NCBI GenBank assembly: GCA_021810245.1
Contig: JAJZJF010000007.1
Location: 1-47,128, forward strand
Length of the DNA stretch: 47,128 nucleotides
DNA from: a bacterium
GTDB taxonomy: Bacteria > Elusimicrobiota > Elusimicrobia > UBA1565 > UBA9628
Reading direction: 5' to 3'
This document shows, in pieces, positions 14,495 to 21,526 of this stretch. How positions within the stretch are numbered: the stretch's first letter is position 1; every line of letters starts with the position of its first letter. Under the pieces are notes generated by a model, which was not told the DNA's origin, ran no database searches, and was given only the letters and a program-made list of their open reading frames with translations. Made by a program: the position numbers and the translations under genes.

Positions 14495-15940
14495 TTAAGC
14501 GACAGGCTGAGGCAAACTCAAGTGTTTCACCAGAACGTTTAATGAGAAATTTTTCCTCAGATGTTCCGCCAATTTTTCCGCGCAATAGACCGAGCGATGG
14601 CGCCCGCCCGTGCATCCAAAAGCGACAAAAAGATTTGAAAATCCGCGAGAAGTATAATTTTCAACGCTTTGATCGATAATTGAAAAGATAGAAGTTAAGA
14701 ATCTTTTAACCTCGGGACTTTTGTCTAAAAGCGAAATCACCTCGGCGTCCAAGCCCGTTAAATTGGCCATCTTTTTATCGCGCCCGGGATTCGGCAAGGC
14801 CCGGCAATCAAACACAAAACCGCCGCCATGCCCATTTTCATCTCTAGGAACTCCCGCGGGATAAGAAAAACTAAAAATATTGACCGTCAGTTTCTTGGTC
14901 GCTGCGCCCAAAGCCATCAACTGGGGAGAAGAAGCCATTTTCTTAAGCAAGGGAACAAAGGCGGGCAAGGAAACTCCTAGTTCTTGCGTTTCCAGAAGCC
15001 AGGACAAATTCTTAAGAGCGAAAGGGATGCTCTGAAGAAAATGAGGTTTTCTATCGTAAAATCCTCTCAAACCGTAGGCTCCGAGAGCCTGGAGAATGCG
15101 AATCAAAATAAAGCCTGGGTAATATTTCATGAAAGCGGCACGATTATAAGACGTTGTTTTTCCCAAAGCTTTTAAGTAGGCCTCTAACAGCTCTTCTCTA
15201 AAGGCCGCGCTAAGATTAGCCTTAGCGTCAAAAGCGAGAGAGGCGATATCATATTGCAAGGCCCCGTGCCGCCCCCCTTGATAATCGATAAAAGCGGGCT
15301 TTCCGCCGCAGACCATGATATTTCTCGACTGAAAATCGCGGTATAGGAAATAATTGGAATCAGCTCCCGACAGGAAATCGCTAAAGCGCTCAAAATCTTC
15401 TTCCAAGGCCTGCTCATCAAACGGGATATGGGCCAAGGTTAGAAAATAATATTTAAAATGATTCATGTCCCAAAGCATGGATTTTTTATCAAAATGGGAG
15501 CGCGGATAGCAGGCGGAATAGTCTAAGTTTTTTCCCGCTTCGACTTGAAAACGCGGCAAGATTTCAGCCGCTTCCAAATAGACGGAAGCGACCTCGGGCG
15601 GTATTTTCTGTTTCGATCGGTTTTGAGAGAGATAGTCAAAAAGTGTCACATCCCCCAAATCTTCTTCCAAATAAACTCCAGCGCCAAGGTTTTCAGCGTA
15701 GATTTCGGGCACGAAAAGCCCGCTTTTGCGGAAGCGCCTTGAGAAAGAAAGGAAGGCCTCGTTTTCCTTTCTCTCCGGCCCCCAAACCCCAATGACGCTT
15801 AGATTTTTGGCGCGCAAGCGAAAAATCTTCCGACTGGATCCGTCGCCTTTCAAAGCCTCAATGGAAACAGGAGCTTGAGAGAAGGTTTTTTTAAATAGGG
15901 CTAAAAGAGATGATTCTGGAGTTTCCAACGAGCCTCTCAC
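14495..15940 (-). CDS. AmgK-like sugar kinase fused to a RapZ C-terminal domain
   Basis: A 481-residue two-domain protein. Residues 1-340 are an aminoglycoside-phosphotransferase-type kinase: glycine-rich GDGSSRKIFRL, catalytic loop YRDFQSRNIMV, metal-binding FIDYQGGRHGALQYDIAS. This resembles AmgK, which phosphorylates MurNAc/GlcNAc at the anomeric position. Residues about 355-475 match the C-terminal domain of RapZ: FVFDCRALPNPGRDKKMANLTGLD and VAFGCTGGRHRSVYCAEKLAEHL. In E. coli RapZ the GCTGGxHRSV segment lies in the glucosamine-6-phosphate sensing domain. The RapZ N-terminal P-loop domain is absent. The start is GTG, overlapping the regulator's stop (GTGA). Inference: the RapZ part may sense amino-sugar phosphates and tune the kinase. 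Confidence 0.85.
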   Translation of the reverse strand: MRGSLETPESSLLALFKKTFSQAPVSIEALKGDGSSRKIFRLRAKNLSVIGVWGPERKENEAFLSFSRRFRKSGLFVPEIYAENLGAGVYLEEDLGDVTLFDYLSQNRSKQKIPPEVASVYLEAAEILPRFQVEAGKNLDYSACYPRSHFDKKSMLWDMNHFKYYFLTLAHIPFDEQALEEDFERFSDFLSGADSNYFLYRDFQSRNIMVCGGKPAFIDYQGGRHGALQYDIASLAFDAKANLSAAFREELLEAYLKALGKTTSYNRAAFMKYYPGFILIRILQALGAYGLRGFYDRKPHFLQSIPFALKNLSWLLETQELGVSLPAFVPLLKKMASSPQLMALGAATKKLTVNIFSFSYPAGVPRDENGHGGGFVFDCRALPNPGRDKKMANLTGLDAEVISLLDKSPEVKRFLTSIFSIIDQSVENYTSRGFSNLFVAFGCTGGRHRSVYCAEKLAEHLRKNFSLNVLVKHLSLPQPVA

Positions 15941-16341
15941 GAAGGCTTGCCCTTCTTGCGATTTTCGACCGCCGCAATCGCGCGCTCAATCTTAGTCTTA
16001 AGCGCCTCGATTTCGACGGGTTTAACGATATAGTCGACGGCGCCAAATAAAAGGGCGTCATTTAAGGTCGCGGCATCGGCAAGGCCGGAAACGACGATGA
16101 TGGGAATATCAGAATATTTGGCCGAAGCCCGAAGTTCCCGCGTAAAAGCGATTCCATCTTCTCCCGGCATCATGATGTCCATTAATATCAGGCTTGGCTT
16201 GCGCACTTCAATGGCTTCCCGCGCTTCCTTAGCGCTAAGAGCACACGCGGCGTCATAGCCCAAAAACGGCAGTGTCTTTTCGTAAAACTCGCATAAAGAC
16301 ACCTCATCATCCACCGCCAAAATTAAGTGTTTATTCGCCAT
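15937..16341 (-). CDS. REC-only response regulator
   Basis: A 134-residue stand-alone receiver domain. The ATG at 16341 is chosen (AAGGA 7 nt upstream; homology starts at HLILAVDDE), 10 codons inside the track ORF. Conserved residues are visible: acidic pair in AVDDE, phospho-acceptor Asp in LILMDIMMPGEDG, Ser in IVVSG, and Lys in YIVKPV. There is no output domain, so it must act by protein contact. Its 5' end overlaps the MauE/DoxX gene by 11 bp and its stop overlaps the kinase start. No histidine kinase gene is in the window. Confidence 0.9.
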   Translation of the reverse strand: MANKHLILAVDDEVSLCEFYEKTLPFLGYDAACALSAKEAREAIEVRKPSLILMDIMMPGEDGIAFTRELRASAKYSDIPIIVVSGLADAATLNDALLFGAVDYIVKPVEIEALKTKIERAIAAVENRKKGKPS

Positions 16342-16843
16342 GATTGTTCCTTTTCCCAGCCCACAAGTCAAGAGCCCAAATCGGCTGAACCTTAAATATA
16401 ATCAGCGATAAGATAATGAGGACAAAATCAACGCCAATCATGATTTTAGGCTCGGGATGAAAAGAGGCCCCAAAACACCCGCAGCTAGGCAGCTCGATGC
16501 CGCGAATCTTTAGAGAGAAAAGCGCGAAGTCAAAAGCGATAAACAAAATACCGGAAGCGACAGTGAAAAGACGCAAAAGATATCCCGTCAACAAACTGTA
16601 TCCAATCAACAGCTCAAGCCACGGCAAGAATGTCGCCAAGGTCAAGGCGGTCGAAGGGGAAACCAAGTTATAGGCTTCAATGATGAGCGCAAACTCTTCT
16701 TTGGGCGCCGCCAGTTTAGAGACTCCGGCGACAATCAAGATAATTCCAATAAGAAGCCGGGCAAAAACGGAAATAAACCTAAAGGCCTTAGAAGATGAGG
16801 CTCGTTTCTCCGGCGAACTTTTGACTTCGGTTTCTTTATCCAT
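16331..16843 (-). CDS. MauE/DoxX-family membrane protein
   Basis: A 170-residue integral membrane protein with four hydrophobic helices (about 25-45, 72-92, 95-118, 130-152). The loop motif LPSCGCFG, a Cys pair next to Phe-Gly, is characteristic of the MauE branch of the DoxX-like superfamily, which supplies or relays disulfide/thiol electrons for periplasmic maturation. It overlaps the DsbA-like gene by 8 bp, and such pairs commonly cooperate, the membrane protein re-oxidising or reducing the thioredoxin partner. Direction of electron flow cannot be told from sequence. Confidence 0.82.
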   Translation of the reverse strand: MDKETEVKSSPEKRASSSKAFRFISVFARLLIGIILIVAGVSKLAAPKEEFALIIEAYNLVSPSTALTLATFLPWLELLIGYSLLTGYLLRLFTVASGILFIAFDFALFSLKIRGIELPSCGCFGASFHPEPKIMIGVDFVLIILSLIIFKVQPIWALDLWAGKRNNHGE

Positions 16844-17459
16844 GTTTTTTGGCCAGAATTTTATCGATCCAAATTGGCCCCAAGGCCGAGAGTTGAAGGC
16901 CGCCTATAAATCTCTTTCCGTTAATAAAAAATGTGGGTGTGGCGCTCACCCAACGCTCTTGCCCTTCCTTGACATCGGCATCAATTAAGGCGACCGTTTT
17001 CGGATCTTTCAAACAGGCCTTAAAGGCCGCGTTATCCAAGCCCAAGGATTTCACATAAGCCTCAATCGCCTCAGGCGGGGATTTTGCTTCCACCCACTGG
17101 TCTTGATTTGCATACAGCAAGTCGTGAAGTTCCCAAAATTTCCCCTGTTCTCCCGCGCATTCCGCCGCAATGGCCGCCGACTTTGCCCAAGGATGAATAT
17201 GCTCGAGAGGGAAATCCTTGAATATAAAGCGAACCTTGGAGCCGTAAAGGGCTAAGAGTTGTTTGCGCGGCCCTTCTGCCGCCCGGCAGGCGGGACATTC
17301 AAAATCGGAGAATTCTGAAATCGTAATAGGAGCGCCAGCCGGACCTTCAATGCGATAAGCGGGAGCGGTCTCCACATAAGGCTTGCGGCTCTTCTTAGCG
17401 AAAAGCCCGGTCACGGCGACCAAAGCTAAAACAACAAGACCCCCGTAAACACGCTTCAT
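16836..17459 (-). CDS. DsbA-like thioredoxin-fold disulfide oxidoreductase
   Basis: A 207-residue extracytoplasmic thiol-disulfide enzyme. It has an N-terminal signal anchor (MKRVYGGLVVLALVAVTGLFA), then a DsbA/Thioredoxin_4 domain with active site CPAC (FSDFECPACRAAEG, about residue 55) and cis-Pro in VSATPTFFING near the C-terminus. The helical insert between them is typical. First gene of the 17.5-12.3 kb operon, with the MauE-like partner directly overlapping. It is likely to introduce or isomerise disulfides in secreted proteins. Confidence 0.9.
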   Translation of the reverse strand: MKRVYGGLVVLALVAVTGLFAKKSRKPYVETAPAYRIEGPAGAPITISEFSDFECPACRAAEGPRKQLLALYGSKVRFIFKDFPLEHIHPWAKSAAIAAECAGEQGKFWELHDLLYANQDQWVEAKSPPEAIEAYVKSLGLDNAAFKACLKDPKTVALIDADVKEGQERWVSATPTFFINGKRFIGGLQLSALGPIWIDKILAKKHG

Positions 17460-17498: not shown

Positions 17499-20015
17499 TT
17501 ACGAGCACTCGGAAAACCCGCAGTCATGACAGACAGGCCCCGGGCATCCGGACTCAAAAGAGACATTTGAAGAATAACACTTCGGGCAATACGAGCTCAG
17601 CGGAATGGGCGATGCTTCCGCCTTAATGGAACCCGCGGATTCCTCCAGCCATCCGGTTTTTTTCAAATGCTGGCGAAGAGCGATGGCAATCGCATGCGGA
17701 ATAGAATCAACCCGATTTTCCCCGAAACCGGAAGGCCTATCGCCCTTGACGCAGTTAAGGTGTTTGAGAACCCGAATGGGGTCCCCGCCTTCCGCGAAGT
17801 ACTTCGACAAAAGAATTCCCACTAAGGACGTCAGTCCCGAGATTTCGGTTCCCAAGGGCGGGATATTCGTAAATATCTGATAAGGGCCCCTTTCATCGTA
17901 ATTGATATGAATGTGAAGCGGCCCGTATCCAGTTCGCATTTGATAATACTCGGAAGAAACGCCAAAGGCCCTCTGAACCGATTCGCGGCGGCTTTTTTTC
18001 TCTTGCGCCGGAGAGATGTTTAAGACCTGTTGGGCTTTGGATCCATCCCGATAGATGGTAATTCCCTTACAGTTGAGTTCATAGGCCAACAAATAAGCCC
18101 GGCGAACATCTTCAACGGTAGAAGAATGAGGGAGGTTGATGGTTTTTGAAACCCCGTTATCGGTATGTTTTTGGAATGCGGCCTGAATGCGAACATGATC
18201 TTCAATTCCGACATCATGGGCCGTTGGAAACAACGATTGGATTTTGGCGGGAATCGCCGATAACCCGCGAACGGATTTATGGTTCTTGTCAATCAAGCTC
18301 CACAACTCTTTTTCCGACAGTCCAAAGAAGTTGTTTTCCTTGGCGATACTCTGAAAGAGGGGGTTAATTTCAAAGAAAACGTCTTTGTCGGCCGGTTTCT
18401 CGCCATTTTTAATCTTGGCCAAAGCCTGCGCATTGTAGCGGGTATAAGCGATGGCAAAAAAGGGCTCAATTCCACCGCCTTGAAGGCCCGCAGCAATAGC
18501 GATCGTGCCAGTCGGAGCGATCGTCGTTCGCGCGCAATGCCGGGGGGTGCGGCTTTCCCCTCTAAAATAAGAACCTTCCGGATCATAGACTGAGTTTTTC
18601 CAATTCGGGAAAACTCCGCGCTCTTTGGCTAATTCTTCGGAAGCGCTGAGCGCCGCATCATTGATGGAATGCATCAACTTTTCCGCAAAAGAAAAACAAG
18701 CTTCCGAGTCATAAGCAATTCCCACCTTCACCAAGGCCTCGGCAAAACCCATGACGCCAAGACCGATTCGGCGATTTCCCTTGGCCATCCGCTCGATTTC
18801 AGGAAGAGGATAATTATTGACTTCAATGACGTCGTCTAAAAACCGAACCGCAACCCTGACCGCTTCGCCGAGTTTCTTAAAATCGAACTCCCCCGCCATT
18901 GTTTTGCCATGGACAAAATTGGAGAGATTAATCGAGCCTAAATTACAAGGCTCCCAGGGCAAAAGCGGCTGCTCTCCGCAAGGATTGGTGGATTCAATCT
19001 GCCCCAAGGCCGGAGTGGGGTTTGAGCCGGAAGAATTAATCCGGTCAATGACAATCATTCCCGGGTCTCCAGTTTTCCACGCTTGTTCGACCATCAAATC
19101 AAAAATCTCGCGCGCCTTGACTTTCCCAGCGGGCTCCTTGGTCCTCGGATTTAAAAGATCGTATTCGGAATCGGAAGCCACCGCCTTCATAAAAGTCTCA
19201 TCAATTGCGACCGAAACATTGAAGTTTTCCATGACGCCGGGTTGGGATTTAAGAGTGATAAAATCCTTAATCTCGGGATGGGTGTAATGCAAAATGCCCA
19301 TATTAGCTCCGCGCCGGGTCCCGCCCTGCTTAACAACTTCGGTCATCTTGTCAAAAAGCTGCATAAATGAAATAGCGCCCGAGGCGACCCCATGGGTTTT
19401 CTTGACTAAATCTCCACGAGAGCGAAGCCGACTGAAAGCGAAACCCGTCCCGCCGCCGGATTTCTGAATCAAGGATTGTGCCGCCAAGGCGTCGTTAATG
19501 CCTTCCATGGAATCGGCGACCGGAAGAACATAACAAGCCGACAGCTGCTGCAAATCCCGCCCCGCATTCATGAGAGTCGGGGAATTGGGCAGAAAATCCC
19601 ACGAGGACATCAAAGCGAAAAACTTATCCTCCCATTCCGACACCAAGGCTTGAGCGGTTTTATTTTTTTGATAAATTTTTTCAAGGTTTGAGATTAAGCG
19701 AGAAAAGTTCTTTTCTCTCTCGGAAGAAGAACGCAGGCCCTCGTGAAAAAGATTCATTCGAGAAACGGCGTTGCCAGCCACGGCCGGAATCTCTTCTGTC
19801 GACAAGTGAACGCCTTCAAACGCTCCCCACTCAGACGCGCGTAAATCATAGAGAATTTCCGCTAAGGCAATATTGTGGGCGACCCCCTTAAGCCAGGATT
19901 CAACCGACGCGGCGTCTCGAAGGTATTTATCTTTAATGACCTTTAATTGGTTTTCAGTGACTGAAACGCTCCCTGCGGAATGTGCGGCTTTCTCAAGCGA
20001 TGTTTTATGGCTCAT
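17499..20015 (-). CDS. nrdJ: Class II (adenosylcobalamin-dependent) ribonucleotide reductase
   Basis: An 838-residue enzyme that reduces ribonucleotides to deoxyribonucleotides using a cobalamin-generated thiyl radical. Visible: FLPNSPTLMNAG, substrate-site Cys in QLSACYVLP, GGGTGFAFSRLR, active-site STNPCGEQPLLPWEPCNLGS with the radical Cys, APTGTIAIAAG, and a TSCPD-type region (GDRPSGFGENRVDSIPHA). The C-terminus ends in a zinc-ribbon-like Cys-rich tail (CPKC...CPGPVCHDCG), the usual redox-active tail. No N-terminal ATP-cone is seen, so overall activity control by dATP may be missing. GGAGG is 5 nt before the ATG. It is a single gene with its own promoter and terminator-like hairpin. Confidence 0.95.
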   Translation of the reverse strand: MSHKTSLEKAAHSAGSVSVTENQLKVIKDKYLRDAASVESWLKGVAHNIALAEILYDLRASEWGAFEGVHLSTEEIPAVAGNAVSRMNLFHEGLRSSSEREKNFSRLISNLEKIYQKNKTAQALVSEWEDKFFALMSSWDFLPNSPTLMNAGRDLQQLSACYVLPVADSMEGINDALAAQSLIQKSGGGTGFAFSRLRSRGDLVKKTHGVASGAISFMQLFDKMTEVVKQGGTRRGANMGILHYTHPEIKDFITLKSQPGVMENFNVSVAIDETFMKAVASDSEYDLLNPRTKEPAGKVKAREIFDLMVEQAWKTGDPGMIVIDRINSSGSNPTPALGQIESTNPCGEQPLLPWEPCNLGSINLSNFVHGKTMAGEFDFKKLGEAVRVAVRFLDDVIEVNNYPLPEIERMAKGNRRIGLGVMGFAEALVKVGIAYDSEACFSFAEKLMHSINDAALSASEELAKERGVFPNWKNSVYDPEGSYFRGESRTPRHCARTTIAPTGTIAIAAGLQGGGIEPFFAIAYTRYNAQALAKIKNGEKPADKDVFFEINPLFQSIAKENNFFGLSEKELWSLIDKNHKSVRGLSAIPAKIQSLFPTAHDVGIEDHVRIQAAFQKHTDNGVSKTINLPHSSTVEDVRRAYLLAYELNCKGITIYRDGSKAQQVLNISPAQEKKSRRESVQRAFGVSSEYYQMRTGYGPLHIHINYDERGPYQIFTNIPPLGTEISGLTSLVGILLSKYFAEGGDPIRVLKHLNCVKGDRPSGFGENRVDSIPHAIAIALRQHLKKTGWLEESAGSIKAEASPIPLSSYCPKCYSSNVSFESGCPGPVCHDCGFSECS

Positions 20016-20054
20016 AATAACCTCCGAGTTCGGAAAATCCCCGCGTCAGAAATA

Positions 20055-20078
20055 AACGGTAACAAGAAGTTTACCGTT
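20055..20078. promoter_or_regulatory. Palindromic operator at the nrdJ promoter
   Basis: AACGGTAA and TTACCGTT form a perfect 8-bp inverted repeat around an 8-nt spacer. It covers the putative -10 of nrdJ. It does not match the usual NrdR box pattern, so the regulator is unknown. Confidence 0.55.
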
Positions 20079-20096
20079 ACAAAAGACTTCTGTCAA
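20068..20096 (-). promoter_or_regulatory. Putative nrdJ promoter
   Basis: On the minus strand: consensus TTGACA (-35), exactly 17 nt, TAAACT (-10, 4 of 6). The -35 is also one arm of a second small inverted repeat (TGTCAA-GGTC-TTGACA, 20091-20106). Confidence 0.6.
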
Positions 20097-20117
20097 GGTC
20101 TTGACAAAACTAAAATT

Positions 20118-20504
20118 TTATTTCCTAATCGCGACGGCGTCAATTTCAATAGAGACGCCCTTTGGAAGAGACTTAATCTCCACGGTCGCGCGAGCGGGAT
20201 AAGGCTGCTTAAAATGCCCGGCATAGGCTTCGTTCATGGCGGGAAATTGAGACAGGTCGGTCATGTAAACTGTTGTTTTGACGACATCGGATAAAGACAA
20301 TCCCACTGTCCGCAAAATGGCGTCAATTTGTCCCAAACATTGGTTCGTCAATTCCGCGATCGTTCCTTTCATCGGGTTTCCCGCGGGATCGGCGGGAATC
20401 TGTCCGGACACAAACACCAAATTCCCCATTTGAACTGCCTGAGAATACGGGCCGATGGCCTTTGGCGCGAGATCGCTGTGAAGGGCTTGTTTTTCATTAT
20501 TCAT
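20118..20504 (-). CDS. ridA: RidA-family enamine/imine deaminase
   Basis: A 128-residue trimeric cytosolic enzyme of the YjgF/YER057c/UK114 family, which hydrolyses reactive 2-aminoacrylate-type intermediates. Signatures are KAIGPYSQAVQMGNLVFVSGQIP near the N-terminus, the conserved Arg in YPARATVEIKSLPKG, and VEIDAVAI at the C-terminus. Last gene of the 27-kb run; its ATG overlaps the rho-like stop (ATGA). Confidence 0.95.
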   Translation of the reverse strand: MNNEKQALHSDLAPKAIGPYSQAVQMGNLVFVSGQIPADPAGNPMKGTIAELTNQCLGQIDAILRTVGLSLSDVVKTTVYMTDLSQFPAMNEAYAGHFKQPYPARATVEIKSLPKGVSIEIDAVAIRK

Positions 20505-21526
20505 TTAAGAGCTCCTAAAAGTGCGTGATTAGTTTTATGCGTGCGCATCAACTCCAATAGAGACTTTAAAGCTTCGATATCGCCCTTGTCCGCCAAAAGC
20601 CGTCTGAGCTTCCAAACGCCTTCAAGCACCTCAGGCGGGAACAATTTTTCTTCTTTTCTTGTTCCTGAATCTCGAACCTTCATCGCCGGAAACAATCTCA
20701 TCTCCGCAGCTTGCCGGGAAAGGACAATTTCCATATTCCCCGTGCCTTTAAACTCTTGGAATATAATATCATCCATCTTGCTACCGGTGTCAACCAAGAT
20801 GGTAGCGATAATGGTCAGAGATCCTCCTTCCTCCAGCTTGCGCGCGGCCCCAAAAAAGCGACGCGGGACTTCCATCGCGCGGGAATCAAGCCCTCCGGTC
20901 ATGGTTCTTGATCCTCCCGCGAACTGATTATGCACGCGCGAAAGCCGAGTGAGAGAATCCAATAAAATGAGGACATCCGCGCCTCCCGCCGCATCGGTGA
21001 TCGCTTTGGCCATTAGAGCCTCTGCGGTCGCCACATGTTCTTGATAACTCTTATCGCTGGAAGAAGCCGATACCTCGGCCTTGACACTCCTTTTAAAATC
21101 AGTGACTTCCTCTGGACGCTCATCAACCAAGAGGCAATATTGCTTGATTTGGGGATCAACGGCATAGACTGCATTGGACAGAGATTTCAAAATCGTGGTC
21201 TTTCCCGCTTTTGGGGGAGCCACAATCAGCCCACGGGTGCCGCGGCCGATGGGGCAGAGTAAATCCATCGCGCGCATCGTCAAATCCGATGACCCCTTTT
21301 CCAGCTGGATCCACTGTTGCGGATCGATAGGCGTTTTGTCGGCGAAGGCTTTTTCTATCTCGCTTAAAACCCGCGGCGCGCGCGCCTCTAACGTCTTCAT
21401 ACCGCCGGAATTGGGATTATTTTGCCTTTTATTCCATCTCTGCCCGGGACGATTGCGGTAATGCGGGCGAAAGCGCTTGCGCCCAAAATGTCCGCCGCCC
21501 GTTCCGTTTTTTTCAGAATTATTCAT
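20501..21526 (-). CDS. rho: Short Rho-type transcription termination ATPase lacking the cold-shock RNA-binding domain
   Basis: A 341-residue protein; canonical Rho has about 420. The RecA-like motor is well preserved: IGRGTRGLIVAPPKAGKTT (Walker A), LLVDERPEEVTDFKRSVKAEVSAS, ADVLILLDSLTRLSRVHN (Walker B), RRFFGAARKLEEGGSLTIIATILVDTGSKMDD, EFKGTGNMEI (R-loop region), SGTRKEEKLF. The N-terminal helical and cold-shock RNA-binding domains are replaced by a 45-residue basic, Asn/Arg/Gly-rich tail (GRKRFRPHYRNRPGQRW). The Q-loop carries GGSRTMTGG where family members usually have a Lys. The GGAGGGAG Shine-Dalgarno fixes the start. It may use the basic tail as a substitute RNA-binding arm, or be a paralogue of a full Rho elsewhere. 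Confidence 0.88.
   Translation of the reverse strand: MNNSEKNGTGGGHFGRKRFRPHYRNRPGQRWNKRQNNPNSGGMKTLEARAPRVLSEIEKAFADKTPIDPQQWIQLEKGSSDLTMRAMDLLCPIGRGTRGLIVAPPKAGKTTILKSLSNAVYAVDPQIKQYCLLVDERPEEVTDFKRSVKAEVSASSSDKSYQEHVATAEALMAKAITDAAGGADVLILLDSLTRLSRVHNQFAGGSRTMTGGLDSRAMEVPRRFFGAARKLEEGGSLTIIATILVDTGSKMDDIIFQEFKGTGNMEIVLSRQAAEMRLFPAMKVRDSGTRKEEKLFPPEVLEGVWKLRRLLADKGDIEALKSLLELMRTHKTNHALLGALK

Follow-up and report, generated by a model that had tools for sequence, protein, structure and literature searches.

A predicted operator pair over the promoter of the sole ribonucleotide reductase gene detected in an Elusimicrobiota genome that lacks NrdR

Introduction

A genome in which only one ribonucleotide reductase (RNR) is detected, and in which neither the repressor NrdR nor an ATP-cone protein is found, raises the question of how its lineage controls the dNTP supply. 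Almost all bacteria have nrdR, whose product sets RNR expression; Rickettsia, Helicobacter and Desulfovibrio are the only exceptions given in a 2014 review (PMC4009431). NrdR binds two boxes approximately three helical turns apart over the promoter (PMC9110341), and RNR genes elsewhere are targets of several global or stress-type regulators (PMC4009431). The present analysis concerns the MAG of an uncultured Elusimicrobiota bacterium, from which a stretch of 47,128 nucleotides (the window) contains the RNR gene nrdJ. The original prediction for this locus proposed that two inverted repeats overlie the nrdJ promoter and imply a dedicated regulator. A conserved pair of predicted operators would provide a concrete bait for a substitute regulator.

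The nrdJ locus and its promoter

The nrdJ gene (positions 17499–20015, minus strand) encodes a class II (B12-dependent) RNR, and its product is identified as an adenosylcobalamin-dependent enzyme by TIGR02504 with 658 bits (cut-off 400). No RNR large subunit other than NrdJ is detected in the genome, whose completeness is ∼94%. The ridA gene (20118–20504, minus strand) lies upstream of nrdJ in the same direction, and the two genes are separated by a gap of 102 bp. Rho (20501–21526, minus strand) is short, with 341 aa, and its N-terminal RNA-binding domain is not recognized by Pfam. On the other side, nrdJ is closely trailed (14495–17459, minus strand) by genes for a DsbA/thioredoxin-4 protein and then a MauE/DoxX membrane protein; the same stretch encodes a stand-alone receiver domain and an APH-like kinase fused to a RapZ C-terminal domain. 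In four relatives (G017, G019, G044 and G047), NrdJ contains long in-frame insertions within open frames of 1272–1842 aa, and the NrdJ matches are split near residues 346 and 627. These insertions in several relatives are probably inteins.

The nrdJ promoter is of the sigma70 type (TTGACA-17-TAAACT, 20096–20068, minus strand) and consists of a -35 hexamer at 20091–20096 and a -10 hexamer at 20068–20073. It agrees with the consensus at 10 of 12 positions, as expected from the near-consensus promoter that had been proposed. The predicted leader is ∼45 nt long. A second promoter-like match at the end of ridA (TTGACG-17-TAAAAT, 20115–20143, minus strand), also with 10 of 12 positions, is probably a chance occurrence within coding sequence. 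A candidate hairpin over the ribosome-binding site (20021–20036) was discarded, as it is not retained in every congener. A cobalamin riboswitch, which would tune the same enzyme when placed before a class II RNR gene, had been judged not to fit in the short leader, and neither this nor any other Rfam family reaches the threshold anywhere in the window.

Two dyads over the promoter elements

The promoter is overlaid by two dyads. Dyad 2 is an exact palindrome, AACGGTAA-N8-TTACCGTT (20055–20078, minus strand), that spans the -10 hexamer together with the start site predicted near 20061 (about -17 to +7) and lies where the original prediction placed it. Dyad 1 (20091–20106, minus strand) is also exact, and its downstream arm includes the -35 hexamer. 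This repeat had been described with arms of 6 bp and a spacer of 4 bp; the involvement of the -35 hexamer holds, but the arms are 7 bp long and the spacer is 2 bp (TGTCAAG-N2-CTTGACA). The two dyad centers are 32 bp apart, which corresponds to three helical turns. Dyad symmetry over the -35 and/or -10 element is a generic property of repressor operators, and both elements are overlaid here.

The symmetry was compared with chance expectation. A repeat with 8-bp arms (spacer of at most 12) occurs in 2.1% of the dinucleotide shuffles of the 102-bp intergenic region, and an 8-bp dyad accompanied by a separate 7-bp dyad occurs in 0.02%. Across the whole window, 21 8-bp repeats are observed versus 16.3 expected from shuffles. 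Because this number is about as large as expected, dyad symmetry by itself is weak evidence, and the case for the dyads therefore rests on their conservation.

Conservation of the promoter block

Both dyads are located inside a 57-bp block (20053–20109, minus strand) that was delineated by comparing five genomes of the genus, which represent closely related species with NrdJ identities of 94–98%. In the block, 54 of the 57 columns are invariant (95%), compared with 14 of 39 columns (36%) in the leader just downstream, 73% in ridA and 65% in the 5′ coding region of nrdJ. The difference yields P values of 3e-10 against the leader and 1e-4 against the ridA coding sequence, which are indicative, given that related sequences are not independent samples. 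The three changes are found between the -35 and -10 hexamers, in the palindrome spacer and just past the palindrome. No substitution affects a dyad arm, and both dyads are perfect at nrdJ in all five genomes. Core promoter constraint explains part of this conservation. The bases between the two hexamers are also conserved, to an extent that, as judged from the alignment, exceeds the need of a bare promoter.

Outside the genus, the other 51 order genomes all lack the palindrome, and a search for the block in 56 order genomes retrieves the five congeners only. Footprinting of nrdJ leaders in relatives, where a lack of conservation was to refute the original prediction, thus gives a divided answer: the palindrome is kept in 5 of 5 congeners but is absent in all other genera. 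The conservation in orthologous promoters that is expected of an operator is accordingly confined to the genus. The core promoter persists in other genera as TTGACA-17-TAMACT without the palindrome, and the -35 hexamer and its 17-bp spacing are retained in most of them. The -10 hexamer of relatives is TAAACT or TACACT and is usually preceded by TG, and among the 29 promoters matched in other genera, 20 have the extended form TGTTAMACT. In the genus, CGG from the palindrome arm occupies this position. The comparison indicates that the genus retained an ancestral TTGACA-17-TANACT core in which a palindrome arm took the place of the TG extension, and this replacement points to a derived, genus-level operator.

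Distribution of the dyads in the genus genomes

Neither dyad has a further perfect copy in the five genus genomes. A genome scan for AACGGTAA-N8-TTACCGTT, which had been suggested as a check, detects the perfect palindrome at nrdJ only. With up to three mismatches, the palindrome is matched 12, 9, 5, 5 and 10 times in the five genomes, versus 10, 6, 13, 5 and 16 times for the reversed control. A palindrome regulon was rejected, as matches with two or three mismatches are no commoner than those of the control. Near matches of dyad 1 (two or three mismatches) are only slightly commoner than the control. The near matches of the dyads that were inspected lie inside coding frames; GGTCAAGACCTTGACC in three congeners is part of a long coding frame that resembles a cation ATPase on visual inspection, and a palindrome copy with two mismatches on C145 is within a long reading frame. 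The exact palindrome is matched 39 times in viral contigs, a number put down to chance in so large a collection, and a literature search for its letters returned unrelated sequences only.

Absence of NrdR and LexA

NrdR (TIGR00244) is absent from all five genus genomes, from all 46 order genomes and from both genomes of the family f4 (G000–G046 and G055 constitute the order and f4). As a positive control, the same model detects NrdR in 7 of 7 genomes from families f5–f10 of the same class, where nrdR is directly upstream of the RNR gene in six of the seven. NrdR-box pairs 30–31 bp apart are present in four of six nrdR promoters of other families. NrdR therefore appears to have been lost lineage-wide in the order and f4, and sister families retain an nrdR-nrdJ operon. 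No ATP-cone protein was detected in the genus, and the LexA DNA-binding domain (PF01726) is found in none of its five genomes.

The claim that neither repeat resembles the NrdR box is only partly borne out. Dyad 2 has no box core, but the NrdR-box (CAAGACCTTG) core, C(A/T)A-N4-T(A/T)G, does occur in dyad 1, in reversed flanks. When two such cores 30–32 bp apart are sought at nrdJ, this core is the single match and has no partner, and the genus has no NrdR to bind it. Inspection of 52 distinct nrdJ leaders likewise revealed no NrdR-box pair. The dyads share with NrdR-box pairs an arrangement as two dyads approximately three helical turns apart over an RNR gene promoter. They differ from such pairs, which precede the nrdR-nrdJ operon in related Elusimicrobiota families, in that the two dyads are unlike each other, dyad 2 lacks the box core and nrdR is missing from the genus and order. 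By analogy, the pair may work like NrdR boxes, with similar geometry and different sequence, without being a member of that class.

A predicted operator for a non-NrdR repressor

Because NrdR is absent from 46 of 46 order genomes, some other control of the sole RNR is to be expected. The 57-bp block probably combines the nrdJ promoter with an operator that is specific to the genus and serves a repressor other than NrdR. A regulator other than NrdR is the best reading because the sites are constrained in the genus and perfect only at nrdJ, and because NrdR and LexA are absent. To this extent the original prediction is upheld; its term "dedicated" is too strong, although the uniqueness of the site, as seen in incomplete genomes, is compatible with it. 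A dimeric (or tetrameric) repressor would bind AACGGTAA-N8-TTACCGTT over the -10 hexamer and the start site, and a second repressor unit or a partner would probably occupy TGTCAAG-N2-CTTGACA at the -35 hexamer. With their centers three turns apart, the two dyads would be presented on one face of the DNA. Binding at this promoter, the only one for an RNR, would block RNA polymerase, and release of the repressor would allow nrdJ transcription according to the demand signaled by dNTPs (or AdoCbl). Protein binding, repression, the use of one protein for both dyads and the signal are all inferred, and a single protein for both dyads is doubtful because they differ in sequence. Several features count against an operator: the palindrome arms are 16 bp apart from center to center, which is longer than in many dimeric repressor sites; one arm of dyad 1 simply equals the -35 consensus; and a genome-unique site, though what a dedicated regulator would have, is uncommon among transcription factors. 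Overall, a predicted operator over a promoter is ordinary in kind, and its setting, with a sole RNR and NrdR lost, is unusual.

The strongest competing explanation, which we consider unlikely but serious, is that the block is only a strong, conserved core promoter free of any regulator, with dyads that reflect chance symmetry in sequence contacted by RNA polymerase. Conservation of the core far outside the genus without the palindrome, the overlap of a dyad 1 arm with the -35 hexamer and the ∼2% frequency of a chance 8-bp dyad in the gap are all consistent with it. Two separate dyads are far rarer in shuffles, however, and the downstream arm and the loop past the -10 hexamer, whose conservation a promoter does not require, are invariant apart from one loop change. 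The spacer is also conserved. A Rho-independent terminator that halts rho-ridA read-through before nrdJ, or a leader RNA hairpin, is improbable. The palindrome does give a terminator-like score on the minus strand with eight pairs and a TATTTCTGAC tail, but the stem reaches only -7.5 kcal/mol with three GC pairs, the U-tract is poor and variable in the genus, and the 51-nt fold has a z value of -1.57. The loop is also invariant in four of five genomes with one change in the fifth. Moreover, the nrdJ mRNA itself cannot form the palindrome hairpin because its predicted transcript starts inside the palindrome.

Regulators known from other systems account for the site even less well. Control by a global or stress regulator (SOS/LexA or an anaerobic or redox factor), with nrdJ as one of many sites, has precedent in the several such regulators that target RNR genes in other bacteria (PMC4009431), and LexA/SOS operators on nrd genes are likewise palindromic repressor sites on the -10 hexamer. 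This is very improbable here, as the genus lacks the LexA DNA-binding domain, perfect copies occur nowhere else and near matches are not above the control for the palindrome and slightly above it for dyad 1. A relict or diverged NrdR operator is scarcely credible. The CAA-N4-TTG core in dyad 1 and the 32-bp center spacing, near that of NrdR-box pairs at approximately three turns (PMC9110341), would fit such an origin. Dyad 2 nevertheless lacks the core, the site is perfect at present rather than decayed, NrdR is missing from the genus and order, and an ATP-cone protein was not found in the genus either.

A different element in related genera

In place of the two dyads of the preferred operator reading, other NrdR-less genera carry a conserved CTCGWCNGAG 11–12 bp upstream of the nrdJ -35 hexamer. 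CGWC-N0-2-GA just upstream of the -35 hexamer (consensus TCTCGWCNGAGRAT) is present in 14 of 26 nrdJ TTGACA promoters from other genera and in none of eight promoter-like background sites, a small control. Seven of the 11 genome-wide matches with at most one mismatch are at nrdJ. The element, by its appearance a distinct control site for nrdJ in the order without NrdR, is similar to the dyads in being partly dyadic and fixed beside the same promoter, but it has another sequence and is absent from the dyad-bearing genus. Tentatively, the whole order may have lost NrdR and placed its class II RNR under non-homologous regulators, with operators that are replaced from one genus to the next: CTCGWCNGAG in many genera and the AACGGTAA and TGTCAAG dyads here; we regard this broader scenario as possible but less probable than the operator itself. 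The TCTCGWCNGAGRAT element is often palindromic, as in TTCTCGACGAGAA, CCTCGACGAGG and TCCTCCGTCGGAGGA (nrdJ upstream regions L011–L028, L034 and L075), and a perfect copy is also located before a Rieske-like gene in L113.
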